Source of the DNA: an uncultured Kordiimonas sp.
GTDB lineage: Bacteria > Pseudomonadota > Alphaproteobacteria > Sphingomonadales > Kordiimonadaceae
Reading direction: 5' to 3'
NCBI GenBank assembly: GCA_947503625.1
Contig: CANNEK010000003.1
Coordinates: forward strand, 434,001-498,000
Length of the DNA stretch: 64,000 nucleotides
Shown: piece after piece, positions 23,471 through 55,342 of the stretch
Position numbering within the stretch: position 1 is the stretch's first letter
How the letters are laid out: the number at the start of each line of letters is the position of its first letter
The notes under the pieces: model-generated
Told to the model about the DNA's origin: nothing
Databases searched by the model: none
Seen by the model: only the letters and a program-made list of their open reading frames with translations
Program-made: the position numbers and the translations under genes

Positions 23471-23692
23471 GATGTAATCCTTTCAGAGCCTAGATAGGCA
23501 TTCTCGGCGATAACGTCCAATCACGAACATGTTGTAATTGACGTGAATTATGGTTAACAACGCGCCGCTACCCGCGACCAGACTACGGGGAAGGCTTGAG
23601 ATTCAAGCGAAAGGCAGGTGTTGTTGTTTTGACCCTGTCGGGACTGGCGTGTGTTGTTTTTTAGTACTTGTTTTGAGTTAAGGCCCCGAGGA

Positions 23693-24253
23693 ATGAATAG
23701 TTTATATGAAGAACTGCGCTTTTATACGAGCGCAGATGTGCTTGTGGATCACTGGCTTGATCTTCTGGCGCCGGATCAGACTTGCCCTTTCAAAAAAGAC
23801 TTCGCCCCGATGCTGATGGGGAGACATTTGCCAGATGTGTTTCTGGCCGAATGGCTGGACGACAATCATATTATGATTCGAGTTGCCGGATCGAGAACTA
23901 CAGACGTCACGCGCGAAGACGGTACCGGCAAAAACATGCTGGATATATGTTTGCCGGAGCACAGGGAACCGTTGCGCGAATTCTATGGGAAAATGCGTAC
24001 CGGGTTATATGCCGGTGTTACAGAACATGCACTTTCGCTTACCTCGTTGCCATCGGCAGCAAAGGGCTTGCAACTGCCTCTTTTGGATGAAAACAGTGAA
24101 GCCCGGTTCTTTGTTGGCGTAACCAAAGTTGAGCCCATGCAAAAAAACCAGCAAGACTTCCGGCGGAAAACCGAAAAGTCTGCAGTCAGTTTAAATATGT
24201 GGTTCACCAACCTAAGCGTACAAGGCGTATCGACAAATTCGAAAATAGGCTGA
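23693..24253 (+). CDS. PAS_5-like sensory protein (paralog 3)
   Basis: A protein of about 186 residues, the most divergent of the five. It keeps a helical start (ADVLVDHWLDLLAPDQTCP), an FKKDFAPMLMGRHLPDVFLAEW segment, the strand HIMIRVAGSRTTDVTRED and TGKNMLDICLPEHREPLREFY, matching the TGKN motif of the next gene. The C-terminal DIGFG-like motif is absent. The ATG at 23693 follows AAGG by 9 nt; the longer frame from 23651 is less likely. It is divergent from msrP and 81 bp upstream of paralog 4. Confidence 0.65.
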   Translation: MNSLYEELRFYTSADVLVDHWLDLLAPDQTCPFKKDFAPMLMGRHLPDVFLAEWLDDNHIMIRVAGSRTTDVTREDGTGKNMLDICLPEHREPLREFYGKMRTGLYAGVTEHALSLTSLPSAAKGLQLPLLDENSEARFFVGVTKVEPMQKNQQDFRRKTEKSAVSLNMWFTNLSVQGVSTNSKIG

Positions 24254-24334: not shown

Positions 24335-24907
24335 ATGCCGGAATTTTATTGGTCGGAAGCTTTTTTTCAGGCGCTGAGCTATAGCGAAGCATCCGAAACG
24401 CTTGCGCGCTATTGGCATAACCTGCCAAGAAATGATGGGCACATATGTCCTCATCGGCGCGATTTCCGTCTGAATGAGATAGCAACACACCTTGATGAAA
24501 CCTACATGAGCAAAAGGATCGGCCCCAAAGAGCTGATCATTCTCGCTTCGGGCAGCCGGCTGGTCAGAATTTTAGGAGCTGATATCACCGGCAAAAACAT
24601 TTTCGAGTTAGTACCGCCCGAAAATGTAGTACCTCAGCAAGACTACTATCAGACACTACACTCGCAACCATGCGCAGGTGCCTTAACCCGCTGGGGCGCA
24701 AGCCTTAAAGAGCGCCCTTTTGTATACAGAACCATGCAGCTGCCGTTGCTTGGTGATAGCGACACAGTTGAATTTTTTGTCGGAACCGGAGTGATTAAGA
24801 CGACCTTCAGAGTGGGCGACCAGCTCTCTATTTCCGACAAAGTTCATGTGGAACAACATGAACAGGTTTTCATTGATATCGGCGCAGGCGTTCCACCAAG
24901 CAAATGA
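24335..24907 (+). CDS. PAS_5-like sensory protein (paralog 4)
   Basis: A 190-residue single-domain protein: ASETLARYWHNLPRNDGHICP, HRRDFRLNEIATHL, the PAS core ELIILASGSRLVRILGADITGKNIFELV and the C-terminal VFIDIGAGVP, related to DIGFGxP in paralogs 1, 2 and 5. It is in tandem with paralog 3 and convergent with astB. No cofactor ligands are recognisable. Its role is unknown; the paired arrangement of PAS genes here and at 3.2-4.6 kb suggests that they duplicate or act in pairs. Confidence 0.7.
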   Translation: MPEFYWSEAFFQALSYSEASETLARYWHNLPRNDGHICPHRRDFRLNEIATHLDETYMSKRIGPKELIILASGSRLVRILGADITGKNIFELVPPENVVPQQDYYQTLHSQPCAGALTRWGASLKERPFVYRTMQLPLLGDSDTVEFFVGTGVIKTTFRVGDQLSISDKVHVEQHEQVFIDIGAGVPPSK

Positions 24908-24945: not shown

Positions 24946-26280
24946 TTACTTCTGAAAGTCGTAGATGCTGCCCAGGTTCAGAATTCCGGTCAGTTCGTCC
25001 AATGCAGCAAAGCTCTCTTCCATTAGCTTTGGGTCACCCAGATCTTCTGCTACCACCCTGTCGCGGTAATGTTTGCCGGCCCAGTCCTGCAGACGCGCGA
25101 CAAGCGTATCATCAAGAACCGCATTGGCGCCCATCGCTGCCAACTGCTCATCAGAGAGCGCAACACGCAGTCTCAGGCACGCCGGGCCACCGCCATTGCG
25201 CATGCTTTGACGCACATCGAGAAAATCAGCGTCCCCGACAGGGCCGTTCGATGCCAGCAAATCCTCGACATAGGCACGTGTGCTCGCAGTCTCCTGCACT
25301 TCAACAGGTAAGATCAACCGCATCTTGTCTGCGCCCGGCACCGATATCAGCTGGCTGTTGAACAGATAAGATGCAACGGCGTCACAAAGTGGCACTTTTG
25401 CAGAAGGAACCTCTACAAATTCGAAATCGATCTCGGGCGCTGCCTCACGCAGCTCCCGCTGTAGCGAAATCGGATCTTCAAACGCATTTTCATGATAGAA
25501 AAATACGTTCTTGTTTGAAACTGCAACAACGTCGTTATGAAACGCGCCGGCATTGATCGCCGCCGGGTTCTGGCGAACAAAAATGGCTCGCCCATCCTTC
25601 AATCCGTGCTGGCGAGCAATCGCTTCACTGGCTTCCAGGGTTTGGCGACCCGGGAAGGTAAGGTCCGTGGCATTTTCGAATGCACTGCGTCCATAAACAT
25701 ACAGTGCAACACCTTCATGGCCATAATCTGTACAGAAGCGGTTATGGTTGGCTGCGCCCTCGTCGCCCATATGCGTGCCCCCGGGCAAAGCCGGATGGTG
25801 CGCAAAGTGCTTCCCTTCCGGGAAATAAGCCTGCAGGACTTTGCCCGTTGTTTCATGCTCAATTGAGCGATGATACATCGCCGCCAGGTTTGCCGGTGTG
25901 AAATGGGTTTTGCCATCTGTCGTATCCGGTGACGGCGAAATCGTGCCGGCATTGGCGGTCCACATTGTCGCAGATGACATCAGGTTCCGCACGAGCGCCG
26001 GACTGGATGTCCAGGCGGCAGAGAGCATTTCCGCGTCACTACCGGTGAACCCGAGTGCTCTGAGCGTTGCAAGATGAGGCCGGTCGTGCGGGGGCAAAAC
26101 GCCCTGCATCATACCAAGACCACGAAGATGCTGCGCTTTCTGCAGGCCCTGAAGCACGCCTTCGCGAGGGTTGGCAATCAGGCCTTGGTTTTTTGCAGAC
26201 GCAACGTTGCCATAGGAAAGGCCCGCATAATTGTGCGTTGGGCCAACGATGCCGTCAAAATTTACTTCACGCCAATTCAT
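24946..26280 (-). CDS. astB: N-succinylarginine dihydrolase
   Basis: AstB converts N2-succinylarginine to N2-succinylornithine, two ammonia and CO2, step 2 of the ammonia-producing arginine succinyltransferase pathway. The 444-residue length is normal. The N-terminal NFDGIVGPTHNYAGLSYGNVAS and NPREGVLQGLQKAQHLRGLG are family signatures; GGGPACLRLRVALSDEQLAA holds the catalytic Cys and GAFHNDVVAVSN a catalytic His. Its start overlaps the astD stop by 4 bp (26277-26280), so it is the third gene of the coupled astA-astD-astB unit. Confidence 0.95.
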   Translation of the reverse strand: MNWREVNFDGIVGPTHNYAGLSYGNVASAKNQGLIANPREGVLQGLQKAQHLRGLGMMQGVLPPHDRPHLATLRALGFTGSDAEMLSAAWTSSPALVRNLMSSATMWTANAGTISPSPDTTDGKTHFTPANLAAMYHRSIEHETTGKVLQAYFPEGKHFAHHPALPGGTHMGDEGAANHNRFCTDYGHEGVALYVYGRSAFENATDLTFPGRQTLEASEAIARQHGLKDGRAIFVRQNPAAINAGAFHNDVVAVSNKNVFFYHENAFEDPISLQRELREAAPEIDFEFVEVPSAKVPLCDAVASYLFNSQLISVPGADKMRLILPVEVQETASTRAYVEDLLASNGPVGDADFLDVRQSMRNGGGPACLRLRVALSDEQLAAMGANAVLDDTLVARLQDWAGKHYRDRVVAEDLGDPKLMEESFAALDELTGILNLGSIYDFQK

Positions 26281-27755
26281 GCTTCATCCCTTTCTTCAGC
26301 CAGTCCCTTGGGCATGGCAGCAACCGTTACTTTTCCTTCCGCCTGTTCCATGGTGGCCACCGCGTAGGCACAGTAATCTGCGGCATAATAGGCACTTGGG
26401 CGATGGTTGCCCGACCAGCCGATACCCCCAAACGGAGCCGTGGAAGCCGCACCAGTCAACTGTTGGTTCCAGTTCACGATACCCGCACGGGACCGAGGAT
26501 AGAAATAATCATAGTTTTTGCGGCTGTCGGAAATCAGCCCCGACGCCAGACCATATTTGGTATTGTTCGCTTCATTGATTGCCGCGTCGAAATCCGCAAC
26601 ACGGATCAATTGCAACATTGGCCCGAACACTTCCTCATCCGGTCGGTCAGCTGCCGCGGTGACATCGATCAAACCGGGGGACAGAAAGGCATCGCCTTGT
26701 GGCAGGCGCTCAACCCGTTTGAGTACAACAGCACCTGACGCCTCAAGCGCATCCTGAGCCTTCAGAACATTCTCGGCAGCAGCGCCGCTGACAACTGGCC
26801 CCATAAAAGGTTCAGGATCAGCGGTGCCAGGCCCAACCTTGATGGTGCCGATCAAATCGATCAGCGTTTCGACAAAGGCATCGCCCTCAGAACCCGTTGG
26901 CACAATCAAACGTCTGGCACATGTACAGCGCTGCCCCGAACTCACAAACGCGGACAGGACTGTCAGCACTGACGCCGCATGGTGGTCTTCAACATCATGC
27001 ACAATCAACGGGTTGTTACCCCCCATCTCCAGAGCCTGAATGACCTGTGGCCTATCCAGAAGCTGGCGCGCGATTGCAAGGCCGGTGTTGGCACTGCCGG
27101 TAAACAGCAAGCCATCAATATCGTTGCTGGCGGCAAGTGCCGCGCCTGTGTCCCGTGCACCCTGAACGAGATTGAGCACGCCGCCCGGAAGGCCTGCCTC
27201 CTGCCAGATACGAACCATTTTCTCCGCAACTGCCGGCACCAGTTCACTGGGCTTGAACACAATCGTGTTGCCTGCAATCAGCGCAGGAACGATATGGCCG
27301 TTTGGCAGGTGCCCCGGAAAATTATATGGACCAAACACAGCCATCACCCCGTGAGGCCGATGCGAAAGCTTTGAACGAATAGCGCCGTTTACAGCTTCTC
27401 GTGTGCCAGTGCGTTCTTCAAAAGCCTTCAGCGATATCTCGATTTTGTTTGCCATCGCCGTGGCTTCACCAAGTGCGTCCCACATGACTTTTCCGGCTTC
27501 CGCAGAGATCAAAGCAGCCAGCTCTGGCTTTTGTTCGTTTACCAATTCGGCATAACGCCGGATAATGATGACCCGTTCTTCAAGCGACATCATCGACCAG
27601 TCGGGGAAAGCCGTCCTCGCGGCGGCAACCGCCGCATCAACGTCCTCTGCCGTTGCTGAATTGCCCTGCCAGACCACTTCACCTGTTGCCGGGTTACCTG
27701 ACACAAAAGAAGCACCAGCCCCCTCCAGCCATTTACCACCAATAAACTGTGTCAT
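26277..27755 (-). CDS. astD: N-succinylglutamate 5-semialdehyde dehydrogenase
   Basis: AstD oxidises succinylglutamate semialdehyde to succinylglutamate with NAD, step 4 of the pathway. The 492-residue aldehyde dehydrogenase has FGPYNFPGHLPNGHIVPALIAG, FTGSANTGLAIARQL, the general base region ALEMGGNNPLIV and the catalytic Cys in FVSSGQRCTCARRL. The opening MTQFIGGKWLEGAGASF is typical of AstD rather than of general aldehyde dehydrogenases. It is coupled by 4-bp overlaps to both neighbours. Confidence 0.94.
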   Translation of the reverse strand: MTQFIGGKWLEGAGASFVSGNPATGEVVWQGNSATAEDVDAAVAAARTAFPDWSMMSLEERVIIIRRYAELVNEQKPELAALISAEAGKVMWDALGEATAMANKIEISLKAFEERTGTREAVNGAIRSKLSHRPHGVMAVFGPYNFPGHLPNGHIVPALIAGNTIVFKPSELVPAVAEKMVRIWQEAGLPGGVLNLVQGARDTGAALAASNDIDGLLFTGSANTGLAIARQLLDRPQVIQALEMGGNNPLIVHDVEDHHAASVLTVLSAFVSSGQRCTCARRLIVPTGSEGDAFVETLIDLIGTIKVGPGTADPEPFMGPVVSGAAAENVLKAQDALEASGAVVLKRVERLPQGDAFLSPGLIDVTAAADRPDEEVFGPMLQLIRVADFDAAINEANNTKYGLASGLISDSRKNYDYFYPRSRAGIVNWNQQLTGAASTAPFGGIGWSGNHRPSAYYAADYCAYAVATMEQAEGKVTVAAMPKGLAEERDEA

Positions 27756-28822
27756 TTGCGGCCCTCCGGTTTTGTGCGGGATTTTTCTGCATCCATATCA
27801 ACATACCTGATGGTTGACCCTTCGGTAACTTTAAGTGCTGTTGCTGCGGTTTCGGGCAACCAGAGACCGCTTGTGCCTTCAATAACGCTGGTTGCAACAA
27901 CACGGAAGTTTTCCAGTTCCACATTGGCGGCAAGATGATGGTGGCCACTGCCACTACCCTCGACACTTCCCGCGAGGGTGCCTTCAACGCTGCTGCGCAC
28001 GGTTTCAATCATATCAACGCGCGCGTCCAAAAGCGGCCCGGCATCAAAAATGTCAACAGCACCAGAGAAACGAAAGCCTTCCTTTTCAAGCAACTTTGCA
28101 GCAGGAACGGCACCGTCATGAGGGCGACCGATCACATCCTGTGCCTCTTTCGGCAAGATTGTTGTGTAAATCGGGAATGTGGGCATGAGATCCGAGATAA
28201 ACTGGCTGTTACCCTGGCCATTGATGTCGTCCGCTTCATAGAAATCGAGATTGAAGAAATGTCGCCCGATTGCATCCCAGAAAGGCGAATTGCCTTTTTC
28301 GTCCACCCAGCCTCTAATTTCAGCGACGACCGTCTCGGGAAACCGCTCCATATGGGCTGCCATCAGGAGATAACGCGATTTCGCCAGCAGTTTACCCAGC
28401 TTGGCTGGTCTATATTCTTCAGTTCGGTAGTCCGGATCGAGGAACAGCGTCGCCACTTCGGTTGCACCAACAAAGTCATTGGAAAGCTGCAACAGCTCGG
28501 TGTCAATGCGAATAGGCGGTTCCGTGCTGGTTTGCGTATGGTGCAATATTCTGTAGCTATAAAATGGTTTATCGAGCCCGATACCCACGATCAAAGCGCT
28601 GGTGCCGATTATCTTGCCGCTATCTGTATCTTCCAGCAGCAACAGGTAATTCGATTTCTTCGCAAGGTCGACAGGCTCGGAAAAGGCAGCCACTGACTGC
28701 TCAAGCCGTTCGGTTAATTGTTCTTCATTGCTTGGGAAGGTTGTCATGCCTGGCGCTTTGATACGCGCAAGTCTCATCAACCCTTCAAGATCATCCAATC
28801 GTGCAGGTCGCACTACAAACAT
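27752..28822 (-). CDS. astA: Arginine N-succinyltransferase
   Basis: AstA transfers succinyl from succinyl-CoA to arginine, step 1 of the pathway. The 356-residue protein starts MFVVRPARLDDLEGLMRLA, a GNAT-type opening, and shows the family's FLDPDYRTEEYRPAKLGKLL acyl-CoA site and FVGATEVATLFLDPDY. The length is normal. Only astA, astD and astB are present here; astC (aminotransferase) and astE (desuccinylase) are missing, so other genes must supply steps 3 and 5. An M20 hydrolase gene lies 105 bp upstream on the same strand. Confidence 0.94.
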   Translation of the reverse strand: MFVVRPARLDDLEGLMRLARIKAPGMTTFPSNEEQLTERLEQSVAAFSEPVDLAKKSNYLLLLEDTDSGKIIGTSALIVGIGLDKPFYSYRILHHTQTSTEPPIRIDTELLQLSNDFVGATEVATLFLDPDYRTEEYRPAKLGKLLAKSRYLLMAAHMERFPETVVAEIRGWVDEKGNSPFWDAIGRHFFNLDFYEADDINGQGNSQFISDLMPTFPIYTTILPKEAQDVIGRPHDGAVPAAKLLEKEGFRFSGAVDIFDAGPLLDARVDMIETVRSSVEGTLAGSVEGSGSGHHHLAANVELENFRVVATSVIEGTSGLWLPETAATALKVTEGSTIRYVDMDAEKSRTKPEGRK

Positions 28823-28927: not shown

Positions 28928-30190
28928 TTAAGCCTTTTGGGATTTTGCTGCGAGCACGTCGTCCAGAGCACCGGCGGCAAAAGCCATAAGAATCAAGGCG
29001 GACAGTTTGGCGCGCTCTGCGAAACTGTCAACCAGAACAAATTCATCCGCAGAATGGATAAGCCCACCCCGTACACCAAGCGTGTCGACATTGGGCAATC
29101 CGGCGGCAGCAAGATTGTTTCCCTCACAGCATCCACCCGTAGCAACATAGTCAACTTTAATGCCTAATTCAGCGCCGCAGTCGGCAATGGCATCCATCAA
29201 CAACTGGTTTGCTTTTGATATAGCTTTGGGAGGTCGGTTAATACCTCCGTGCAAACGCACGGAGAAGCCATCTCTTGCACCAAACTGTTCCACAATTTTG
29301 GCAAGCCGGGCTTCAAACCAGCCCGCATCGTCGGGTTGCTCAAGCCGGACATTGAACCGGCAAACCGCCCGGTCCGGAACAACATTAGGCGCAACACCAC
29401 CCGACACGACAGCAGGGTTCACCGTTAGTCCCGGCTTGCCGTTTGTAAGAGCCGAAAGCGCGCCGATGATCTCCGCCATCAACACAACAGCGTTACGACC
29501 TTCGAAGAACTCCCGCCCGGCATGGGCCGCTTTGCCTTCAACCACCATCACAAAGTTGCCACTGCCTTTGCGGGCACCGGCAAGCGTACCATCGGCGAGT
29601 GCTGGCTCATATGTCATGCCGATGTCGGCGGCAACCGCACGTTCCGCCAGCACCACAGCAGATCCCAGCGAGCCGGTTTCCTCATCAGGCGACAGGATCA
29701 CTTCCCATCCGGTTGACAGCGCATAGGGTGACGCCTCAAATGCTTTCAACGCATTCAGCATTACGAGAATGCCGCCTTTCATGTCGGCAACACCTGGGCC
29801 GTTCAACGTGTTATCATCCAGCCACTTCGGTTCCTGAAAATCATGATCTATGGCAAAAACAGTATCGGTGTGCCCGGTCATCAAAACCCGCCGATTGGCA
29901 TCAGGCCGTTTGAAAAGCCGAATACAGCGCCCGTTTTTATTGATGATGACATCGCCCGAAGGTGTAACACCTTCCCCGTCAGGCAGATCAATGAACTCAA
30001 TCTCGGGCTCAAGCTCGGCAAAGGCTTCCAGGATCAGCGTTTCCATCGCAGCCAAACCATCAAGGTTGCGGCTACCGCTATTGACCCGGGACCAGGCTAT
30101 AACGGTATCGACCATTTCTTGCTGGCGCGCCTCAACTTCAGACAGGAGTGCGCGCACGGCCGGCTCCACGGCTATTGCTGACGGTTTCAA
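28928..30190 (-). CDS. M20-family hydrolase, CPG2-like, upstream of astADB
   Basis: A 420-residue cytosolic (no signal peptide) zinc hydrolase. VLMTGHTDTVF (metal His, Asp), GPGVADMKGGI and ILSPDEETGSLGS (Glu) are the active-site motifs, with a central dimerisation domain and a C-terminal metal His (near GGLIHSADEFV). The VNSGSRNLDGLAAM opening resembles glutamate carboxypeptidase G2. No astE gene is present, so it may hydrolyse N-succinylglutamate to glutamate and succinate; this is inference. The start at TTG 30190 is preferred because GAAGAGG lies 7 nt upstream; 30208 (TTG) is the alternative. It is related to the exported M20 gene at 53917. Confidence 0.8.
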   Translation of the reverse strand: MKPSAIAVEPAVRALLSEVEARQQEMVDTVIAWSRVNSGSRNLDGLAAMETLILEAFAELEPEIEFIDLPDGEGVTPSGDVIINKNGRCIRLFKRPDANRRVLMTGHTDTVFAIDHDFQEPKWLDDNTLNGPGVADMKGGILVMLNALKAFEASPYALSTGWEVILSPDEETGSLGSAVVLAERAVAADIGMTYEPALADGTLAGARKGSGNFVMVVEGKAAHAGREFFEGRNAVVLMAEIIGALSALTNGKPGLTVNPAVVSGGVAPNVVPDRAVCRFNVRLEQPDDAGWFEARLAKIVEQFGARDGFSVRLHGGINRPPKAISKANQLLMDAIADCGAELGIKVDYVATGGCCEGNNLAAAGLPNVDTLGVRGGLIHSADEFVLVDSFAERAKLSALILMAFAAGALDDVLAAKSQKA

Positions 30191-30595
30191 TAGTTTACCT
30201 CTTCCCAATCCGGGCCTTTAGTTAAGAAAGACCAGTTTAGCAGGGCCGTAAAAACCCCTTTATCATTGCCCGATGCTTGAACCCTCAGGGGCGCGAAGTC
30301 AATTATCTTGATTGATGATTGGCCGCGATAAAGACCGGCAGCATGATTCGGACACTGTGTTCTCCTGTTCAACTTTCGAAATAAAACTGAACAATGGTCA
30401 TTGATATTTAGTCATAAACCAATTGTTTATACCGCTGTTCGTCGCATCGGTCACACGTTTCGTCTCATGAATTGGTCATCAGCAGGGACAGGGAGACTAG
30501 GCTTTGACTACTGTTGCCAGCGAAGGCAACGGATTTATGCCCCAAATGGCCACAGAGCAAAAAAACAAAAAGGGGCCTGTACAGTGAGGACCAAA
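30191..30595. other. Intergenic region, M20 hydrolase to LuxR regulator
   Basis: A divergent 405-bp gap, expected to hold the promoter of the arginine-related unit on the minus strand and that of the regulator on the plus strand. An open frame from 30401 extends into the regulator, but its residues upstream of 30596 resemble no known domain and the ribosome site is at 30596. I see no RNA gene or repeat here. Confidence 0.3.
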
Positions 30596-31312
30596 ATGAA
30601 AGCTCTTATAGTAGACGGCGAGGAACTATTCAGATTATCGATGCGGGAAGTTGTTTCTGTTTCAACGACATTCAACGAGATCATTGAAGCGGGCAGTGAA
30701 AGCGAATTTATTTCGGTAACGGCAAAACACGATTCCCTGGATCTGGTGGTAGTTCACCCCAATGGTCTGGGTAACAGCAATTCCCCCCAGGGTTCAGAAG
30801 AAGGCCGCAATTGCCTGAATTTGGTGAAGCGGCTATACCCATCAGCCGCCATTGTCATCATTACCGATAACACGCAAATCCCTCCCAGTTGGCAAGGCAC
30901 GACAATGGTTGGCCGCGGCGCAAGTGTTTCCACAATTGTGAACAAGATCAGGCGGTCACTTAATTTACCCACGGATACCACGGCGCAAGCGCCAACACGG
31001 CCAGCTACTCCCAATGTGCGTGCCTTCATGCACGACAACCTCAGACCTACGAACTCCGGAGAAGATGCCTACGTAGACCTGGGGCGCCTGTCTTTCCGCC
31101 AAAAACAGATTTTAGCCATGGCAGCGGATGGCTTGCCCAACAAGGAAATTGCCGCCAGACTGGGCATCGCGGAAGGTACCGTAAAGGCCCATATGCACGC
31201 GATTTTCAAAGTCCTTGATGTATCAAATCGCACACAGGCGGTGATCAAATACGGCGCTTTGAACCAGATTGTTGCGCCCGCCGGCGGCCTGGTGCACCAA
31301 AGCGCCATGTAA
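30596..31312 (+). CDS. LuxR/NarL-type regulator with degenerate receiver domain
   Basis: A 238-residue protein. An N-terminal receiver-like domain (residues 1-125) opens with KALIVDGEELFR, but the phosphorylated Asp is replaced: LDLVVVHPNG has His54 where the family has Asp, and the conserved Lys appears to be lost (MVGRGAS near 107). Thr90 (IVIIT) is kept. A linker rich in Thr, Ala and Pro leads to an intact LuxR HTH (LSFRQKQILAMAADGLPNKE, then GTVKAHMHAIFKVL) at residues 165-225. The ATG at 30596 is preceded by GTGAGGA; an open frame from 30401 is not supported. Target genes are unknown; the chemoreceptor gene follows. Confidence 0.83.
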   Translation: MKALIVDGEELFRLSMREVVSVSTTFNEIIEAGSESEFISVTAKHDSLDLVVVHPNGLGNSNSPQGSEEGRNCLNLVKRLYPSAAIVIITDNTQIPPSWQGTTMVGRGASVSTIVNKIRRSLNLPTDTTAQAPTRPATPNVRAFMHDNLRPTNSGEDAYVDLGRLSFRQKQILAMAADGLPNKEIAARLGIAEGTVKAHMHAIFKVLDVSNRTQAVIKYGALNQIVAPAGGLVHQSAM

Positions 31313-53916: not shown

Positions 53917-55230
53917 TTAGTTTGCACCCCGCTGCAGCAACCGGTGGATCAGGATGGCGCTCCGCACAGTCGCGAACTTGACGGAGGGCAAATCAACCCA
54001 TTCGTCGGGCGTGTGCGATCCGCCCCCAAAGCCACCGAGTGCGTCCATTGATGTAACTTGCGGTGCTACAAACGAAATATCTGCTGCCCCTCGCTGTTCC
54101 GGTGGGAATGCCTTCACCGGCGTTGCACCCAGCGCCACGGTTACATCATTTAACTCGGCCAGAAGCGCTCGGTTGGCTTCGGTTTCCTCCATGGCCGGAT
54201 ACGAGTCTGTAAAACTGACTTTCGCCTCTGTCTGCGGCAAACTTTCGGCCACGATTGCACGCATGGCAGCGCGGGCCCGTTCTTTCTGTGCCTCGTTCAT
54301 GAAACGCAGACCTCCATGCACGACAGCCGTTTGTGCCACCACATTGGTTTTGCCAAAAGCTTTCTGCTCGGCAGCATTCACCCCTTCTTCTACGAATGTA
54401 CCGCCAGCAATAACACCGGGGTTAAACGTCAGGCCATGTTCACCGCGCACTTCGTTATAGAAGCGGTGGAGAATACGTGAAATCTCAAAAACGGCTCCAG
54501 CCCCGACACTTTCCCGGAAAATACCCGATGAATGCGCGCGTTTCCCCGAAACCTCGAGTGTCCAGCCTGATGAACCCCGCCTGCCAATAACGGCATAACC
54601 TTCACTGCCACCTTCGAAGTTCAGGGCAATGTCGCTGTCTTTCGCTGTTTCGATTAAGTCTTGCCGGGCAACTGCAAGCGGCCGGCCAACAGACTCTTCG
54701 TCTCCGGTGAAGAAAACGCGGATGGTGCCGCGGTCCAGCTGCCCGTTTTCCGAAAGCGCCTTCAAGGCATAAAGGATAATCGCATCGCCGTCTTTCATGT
54801 CGGTTGCACCAGGGCCTGTTGCCCTGTCGCCGTCCCGTTCGAACTTCTGAAACGGGCTATCCATGGGAAAGACGGTATCAAGATGTCCGATCAATAACAG
54901 GCGCGGGCCTTCCGGTGCCGCGCGTTCGGCAAGAAAATGACCGGCCCTGTCCATGTCCTGTGGCATGTCGATCCAGCGCGAACCAAAACCCAGCGCATCG
55001 AACTCCCGGGCAAATACATCGCCGACAGCACGCACCCCATTCAGGTTGCGCGTACCACTGTTGATATTAACGATCTGCTCGAGAAACAATATCTGTGCGT
55101 CAAAGTTTGCTTCCACCCTGGCCTTTATCCGTTCTTCGGCAGGGGACAATGTCTGCTGGGGAAAAGAGGGTCCGGAAAGACCAAATACAACCCCGATGCA
55201 CACCAAAATACCTGCCCGAATACGTTTCAT
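53917..55230 (-). CDS. Exported M20-family peptidase (glutamate carboxypeptidase-like)
   Basis: A 437-residue zinc peptidase with a signal peptide (AGILVCIGVVFGLSGPSFPQ). Motifs are LLLIGHLDTVF (His, Asp), TGPGATDMKDGDAI and FFTGDEESVGRP (Glu), with the C-terminal metal His in GGSHTPDEWVDL. VNINSGTRNLNGVRAVG resembles CPG2-type enzymes and the cytosolic M20 gene at 28928, so the two are paralogs with different locations. It probably cleaves C-terminal Glu-like residues or acyl-amino acids in the periplasm. The start at 55230 is preferred over 55332, as it begins the signal peptide. Confidence 0.87.
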   Translation of the reverse strand: MKRIRAGILVCIGVVFGLSGPSFPQQTLSPAEERIKARVEANFDAQILFLEQIVNINSGTRNLNGVRAVGDVFAREFDALGFGSRWIDMPQDMDRAGHFLAERAAPEGPRLLLIGHLDTVFPMDSPFQKFERDGDRATGPGATDMKDGDAIILYALKALSENGQLDRGTIRVFFTGDEESVGRPLAVARQDLIETAKDSDIALNFEGGSEGYAVIGRRGSSGWTLEVSGKRAHSSGIFRESVGAGAVFEISRILHRFYNEVRGEHGLTFNPGVIAGGTFVEEGVNAAEQKAFGKTNVVAQTAVVHGGLRFMNEAQKERARAAMRAIVAESLPQTEAKVSFTDSYPAMEETEANRALLAELNDVTVALGATPVKAFPPEQRGAADISFVAPQVTSMDALGGFGGGSHTPDEWVDLPSVKFATVRSAILIHRLLQRGAN

Positions 55231-55342
55231 ACATTGTCTCTCTTGTTTCTGATCAGCCCGACAGAAGCATCCTATGTGACAGCCTGCCTTAAAAACAATG
55301 CCAATCGAAACCAAAAAGACTGCCCCAGCCAATAAACGGGCT

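Follow-up and report, generated by a model that had tools for sequence, protein, structure and literature searches.

A locus that encodes AstA, AstD and AstB of the AST pathway of arginine breakdown, with neither astC nor astE alongside, raises the question of which enzyme performs the last step. The locus lies within a window of 64,000 nucleotides (the whole stretch of DNA analysed), positions 434001-498000 of contig C3 in an alphaproteobacterial genome, G000. The answer proposed here is an M20 metallohydrolase of the NF005602/PRK07338 family encoded next to the three genes. This protein is very probably an N-succinyl-L-glutamate desuccinylase, which would catalyse the last AST step in place of the non-homologous AstE.

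In the proposed route, AstA would succinylate arginine (or ornithine) and AstB would lead to N-succinylornithine. An ArgD-type transaminase encoded elsewhere would act as AstC, and AstD would then form N-succinylglutamate, the putative substrate of the M20 protein. As a cytosolic di-metal amidohydrolase, the latter would convert N-succinyl-L-glutamate into succinate and glutamate. The cytosolic location is predicted from the lack of a signal stretch, as judged by eye.

Gene organisation at the locus

The genes are ordered M20 hydrolase, astA, astD, astB on the minus strand (Table 1). Overlaps of four bases are found at both the astA-astD and astD-astB junctions, and a gap of 105 bases separates the M20 stop from astA. 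The sequence-only reading had described a coupled astA-astD-astB unit with an M20 gene upstream on the same strand and intact metal motifs; this is confirmed by the overlaps and by the metal-site residues discussed below. The M20 reading frame is intact from its first TTG (28928-30208), and this longer version of 426 amino acids was used for the profile searches and the structure model. The TTG at 30190 looks the better start because it is the one preceded by the ribosome-binding-like stretch.

Table 1. Features of the operon in window coordinates
Feature	Position	Strand	Basis
M20 metallohydrolase, NF005602/PRK07338 (candidate AstE replacement)	28928..30190	-	profile match, fold, alignment; TTG start at 30190
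Ribosome-binding-like stretch GGAAGAGG before the TTG start at 30190	30198..30205	-	read off sequence, predicted
astA, arginine/ornithine N-succinyltransferase	27752..28822	-	TIGR03243 subfamily over cut-off, PF04958; TIGR03244 equivalog below
astD, succinylglutamate-semialdehyde dehydrogenase	26277..27755	-	TIGR03240 over cut-off
astB, N-succinylarginine dihydrolase	24946..26280	-	TIGR03241 over cut-off, PF04996

AstB and AstD score above the cut-offs of their NCBIfam equivalogs (597 bits against 538 and 728 against 579, respectively). AstA passes the cut-off of the arginine/ornithine succinyltransferase subfamily (376 bits against 284) and is below that of the narrower AstA equivalog (348 against 391). 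All three AST proteins are thus encoded at the locus, AstA at the subfamily level only. A scan for promoters and terminators stayed inside the shuffle range (5 vs 3.6 +/- 2.1; 4 vs 7.1 +/- 3.0).

Several other genes of the window were recorded. Just upstream of the operon lies a divergently oriented gene (30401-31312, plus strand), whose product has a LuxR-type (GerE) DNA-binding domain and is a possible regulator. Two tandem PAS_5-domain genes (23651-24253 and 24335-24907, plus strand) run towards the 3′ end of astB. Another M20 protein similar to CPG2 (53917-55332, minus strand) is 27% identical to the first, is below both family cut-offs and has a signal-like N-terminus, judged by eye.

Candidates elsewhere in the genome

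The absence of astE and astC held when the whole genome was searched. No protein of G000 exceeded the cut-off of the astE model (305.65 bits), the two matches scoring 26 and 24 bits, and Pfam PF04952 had no match. A standard astE, named beforehand as the finding that would speak against the M20 protein, was therefore found with neither model. There was no match over the astC cut-off either. The best match to the astC model is the argD gene beside argF, at 384 bits against a cut-off of 610, and its product is a plausible AstC of this genome.

The two weak astE matches, L001 and L002, are AstE/AspA-superfamily proteins (PF24827 at 125 and 135 bits). By eye, L001 has a signal-like N-terminus, and L002 follows a rimK-like gene. 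Such proteins could in principle perform the last AST step, with the M20 protein as an unrelated passenger of the operon, either a peptidase or a hydrolase of the folate type. The presence of two PF24827 proteins in the genome favours this alternative, but their scores stay far below the cut-offs, at 24-26 bits with the AstE model and 25-26 bits with PRK05324 (170 needed). The former score rules out either as a true astE. The alternative is also hard to square with the linkage and astE exclusion across 388 genomes described below, and is regarded as highly improbable.

Separate genes for DapE (L133, 533 bits) and ArgE (L146, 484 bits) are present in G000. The M20 gene of the window is therefore neither the DapE nor the ArgE gene of the cell.

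Family, active site and predicted fold of the M20 protein

With 548 bits against a cut-off of 357, the M20 protein falls within NF005602/PRK07338. This family is described by NCBIfam only as “hydrolase”, with no substrate or pathway given. Both PF01546 and PF07687, the catalytic and dimerisation domains, are over their cut-offs, which places the protein in peptidase family M20. The AstE family (TIGR03242) was absent from the best 25 of its 48 family matches, and the protein is not a member of it. It is likewise not a member of the glutamate carboxypeptidase family NF004788 (193.7 bits, cut-off 349) and is below the cut-off of the DapE/ArgE subfamily TIGR01910 (99.8 bits against 217.6). The DapE models gave at most 85 bits and the ArgE models at most 69, all below cut-off.

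The active site was compared in an alignment of 65 sequences, consisting of the window protein, 53 of the 80 relative loci considered below and 11 further loci. All 65 match the NF005602 family at E <= 1e-30. The residues H113, D142, E176, E177, E201 and H385 are identical in every sequence, the window included. Their roles as metal ligands and general-base Glu are assigned from carboxypeptidase G2 (CPG2), in which we take the metal ligands and general base to be H112, D141, E175, E176, E200 and H385. The equivalents of CPG2 H229, N275, R288 and R324, located by position count along a profile alignment with CPG2, are likewise the same in all 65 sequences. Many M20 enzymes share H229, N275 and the arginines, so their conservation agrees with the proposal and is no proof of it. 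K208 of CPG2 is not conserved among the 65 sequences, all of which have an R213 and a GGxCxGNN loop instead.

The AlphaFold model of the protein has a pLDDT of 95.6. Among solved structures, VIA-align placed CPG2 first (Z 43, rmsd 3.8 over 385 residues) and DapE next (Z 35), and CPG2 was also the top solved structure in Foldseek. The sequence profile gave the same order, with 177 bits for CPG2, 98 for the best other solved structure and at most 81 for DapE.

CPG2 is an M20 enzyme that releases a C-terminal glutamate, and DapE is an M20 enzyme that strips a succinyl group from an amine. The proposed reaction has glutamate as the leaving group in common with the former and succinate as the acyl group in common with the latter. 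CPG2 (1CG2; NF004788) is the closest solved fold, and its metal and glutamate-side residues are kept in the window protein. The two differ in K208, which is not kept, in the invariant R213, in the absence from the window protein of a signal stretch visible by eye and in the acyl group, which is pteroyl in CPG2 and is expected to be succinyl here. DapE has the M20 fold in common with the window protein but is the more distant structure by Z score, and the DapE cut-offs are missed.

The closeness to CPG2 also fits a CPG2-type enzyme that hydrolyses a broad range of N-acyl-glutamates, with the AST pathway as one of several roles. This reading overlaps with that of a succinylglutamate desuccinylase. 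It is considered unlikely, as the protein is well below the glutamate carboxypeptidase cut-off and has an invariant loop of its own, and the family occurs in the 388 genomes only alongside AstB (34) or astA-astD (1).

Gene neighbourhoods in relatives

At least 555 relatives were found by the M20 gene, of which the best 80 were used, with up to 8 kb of DNA on each side. Among the matches listed, a Kordiimonadaceae MAG comes first at 83% identity; alphaproteobacterial MAGs and species of Kordiimonas come next. By organism title, the best 80 span the Kordiimonadales, Maricaulales, Caulobacterales, Sphingomonadales and Rhodospirillales as well as 22 gammaproteobacteria, mostly Oceanospirillales (Neptunomonas, Marinobacterium, Oceanospirillum, Endozoicomonas, Amphritea).

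The predicted association with ast genes was observed in these relatives. At least one of astA, astD and astB is present at 75 of the 80 loci, and in 69 the start of astA lies no more than 300 bases downstream of the M20 gene on the same strand. Downstream DNA of 5 kb or more is available at 63 loci, of which 52 contain all three ast genes and 58 contain astA and astB. Four of the five loci with no ast gene extend downstream no further than 3.7 kb past the M20 gene; L092 (Endozoicomonas) has none despite 5.7 kb of downstream DNA. A search for astE in 50 M20-bearing genomes of the best 80, including 22 with gammaproteobacterial titles, found it in none.

The gammaproteobacterial operons often have the order argD/astC-M20-astA-(astA2)-astD-astB, and in 14 of the 22 the end of an argD/astC-like match lies at most 300 bases upstream from the M20 gene. 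Two tandem astA paralogues between the M20 gene and astD were noted at L052, L054, L059, L061, L062 and other Oceanospirillales loci; they presumably resemble the aruFG pair of Pseudomonas. The pathway forms a single run, argD-M20-astA-astD-astB, at L012 and L127. At L128 the order is astC-M20-astD-astB with no astA alongside, and the AstC is over the TIGR03246 cut-off and 60% identical to that of E. coli. In these three runs the M20 protein would stand where AstE is needed.

Other layouts are informative as to the substrate. Sphingomonad-type operons have the form M20-astA-astB with astD elsewhere, which would suit an enzyme that cleaves N-succinylornithine. AstA, AstB and the M20 protein would then form a short-cut from arginine to ornithine, with AstD used otherwise. 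ArgE, itself an M20 enzyme, takes an acyl group off ornithine, which also counts for this alternative. Against it, AstD is over its cut-off in all six tested genomes with M20 and AstB, including the sphingomonad-type G012 and G145, where astD lies elsewhere in the genome. In addition, G640, G556 and G642 have M20-astA-astD without an adjoining astB; in G640, which has no AstB match at E <= 1e-60, such an enzyme would merely undo the work of AstA. Operons with AstC and AstD would be left without an enzyme for succinylglutamate. A short-cut that makes astD unnecessary is ruled out by the six genomes with AstD and the layout of G640, and cleavage of succinylornithine in general is judged very unlikely. 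Units of M20-astA-astD without astB (L121, L123, L125) indicate that astD is the partner that the M20 gene keeps where astB is not alongside. N-succinylglutamate is therefore the best substrate candidate by inference from the operon layouts, since an enzyme for succinylornithine would reverse the AstA step in G640 and, wherever AstD acts, would not remove the succinylglutamate.

Co-occurrence with AstB and exclusion of astE

The distribution of the enzymes was examined in a draw of 388 Pseudomonadota genomes, with AstB counted at E <= 1e-60, M20 over the family cut-off and astE at E <= 1e-10. AstB was found in 100 genomes, the M20 family in 35 and astE in 76 (58 over the curated cut-off). Among the 100 genomes with AstB, 64 have astE only, 34 have M20 only, none has both and two have neither. 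Of the 64, 55 are over the curated AstE cut-off and nine are just under it at 269-299 bits. In the two genomes with neither enzyme, G110 and G621, AstB occurs without astA or astD nearby. Separately, an astE match without AstB was noted in 12 of the 388 genomes.

In 31 of the 34 genomes with both, the distance from the M20 gene to astB is at most 3.2 kb; the M20 gene heads M20-astA-astD in G556 and G642, where astB is elsewhere, and is apart from astD-astB in G422. The one M20 genome with no AstB match at E <= 1e-60 is G640, which has M20-astA-astD. An arginase/agmatinase-family gene is found about 0.6 kb past astD in G640 (L125), and ornithine made by arginase is possibly succinylated directly there.

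Fisher tests gave 2e-21 for M20 with AstB and 1e-24 for M20 against astE within AstB genomes, p-values that ignore kinship. Much of the contrast is between the class of the window and the rest of the phylum. Within the class, M20 is present in 32 of 34 AstB genomes; outside it, astE is present in 64 of 66 and M20 in exactly the other two (G477, G574). In a control set of 14 named genomes, Caulobacter vibrioides has AstB and M20 over cut-off with no astE match, and Escherichia coli has AstB and astE with no M20 match.

A second draw covered 240 genomes of the class. AstB is over its cut-off in nine (a match of 20.6 bits in G205 was discarded for falling short of it) and the M20 family is over cut-off in six, all among the nine and all with M20 beside ast genes. 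No astE over cut-off was found in the 240, the one sub-cut-off match being in G133 at 61 bits. The AstB genomes without M20 are G110, with AstB alone, and G116 and G220, both with astA-astD-astB.

It would be hard to explain this linkage and mutual exclusion by passive travel of the M20 gene. The comparative genomics supports the suggestion of the sequence-only reading that the M20 protein stands in for AstE, an activity that we infer from these patterns. That it would be the usual last enzyme in the sampled alphaproteobacteria that have AstB (32 of 34 and 6 of 9 in the two draws), and would serve some gammaproteobacteria too, is well supported.

Probable repeated replacement and a possible further solution

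A tree of AstB was built with 99 rows, those long enough among 103 AstB stretches found. The M20-associated gammaproteobacterial AstBs group among astE-associated AstBs, the starred set holding 15 M20 and 6 AstE rows, and at least four changes between enzyme types are required. On AstB alone, with four of the 99 rows dropped (L084, L016, L077 and L126, the first three flagged as long branches), the AU test did not exclude a single switch (p 0.22). The joint AstB-AstD data rejected it (p 0.0195) with a minimum of three changes, in a set of 50 rows (35 of 74 M20-type and 15 of 21 AstE-type) hand-chosen after the AstB tree was seen. In the M20 tree, a single fork (SH-aLRT 83) unites 18 of the 19 rows labelled gammaproteobacterial and includes one alphaproteobacterial row as well. 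Repeated swapping of AstE and M20 is likely.

The genomes G116 (99% complete) and G220 (87% complete) encode astA-astD-astB and contain neither the M20 family nor astE; a missing astE therefore does not always mean an M20 enzyme. A PF01546 inventory of G000, G116, G220, G621 and G640, followed by a scan of three proteins of G116 and G220 (L132, L136, L138), did not point to the enzyme of the last step in these two genomes. This group may have a third solution. A type III CoA-transferase gene was noted near astA in both (L014, L015), as was an HMG-CoA-lyase-like gene, for which the Pfam test was made in G116 (L014) only.

The wider picture in which PRK07338 serves most alphaproteobacterial AST pathways, has repeatedly changed places with AstE in gammaproteobacteria and is replaced by a further enzyme in the G116/G220 group is, taken as a whole, somewhat favoured.

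Relation to known enzymes and significance

The proposed reaction and pathway position are the same as those of AstE/AruE (TIGR03242), which sits in the complementary set of AST genomes. The two differ in domain, AstE being M14-like, and in gene position: astE is last in the operon of E. coli, whereas the M20 gene usually heads astADB. An M20 enzyme acting as a succinylglutamate desuccinylase was not found in the open-licence literature, among the matches listed. The main text of Price et al. 2022 (PMC9007349) does not contain the terms astE, astB or M20, and no treatment of the gap left by the missing last enzyme was found in it. The family and the pathway are each known and the NCBIfam description does not link them; the proposed link is the new element, adding a candidate substrate and pathway to the family of which the window protein is a member.

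If the proposal is true, a curated family called only “hydrolase” would gain a function, and the last gap in arginine breakdown would be closed in Kordiimonas-, Caulobacter-, sphingomonad- and Oceanospirillum-type bacteria. Pathway-calling tools that search for astE alone would be helped. The M20 protein would also provide a clear case of non-orthologous replacement within an operon.
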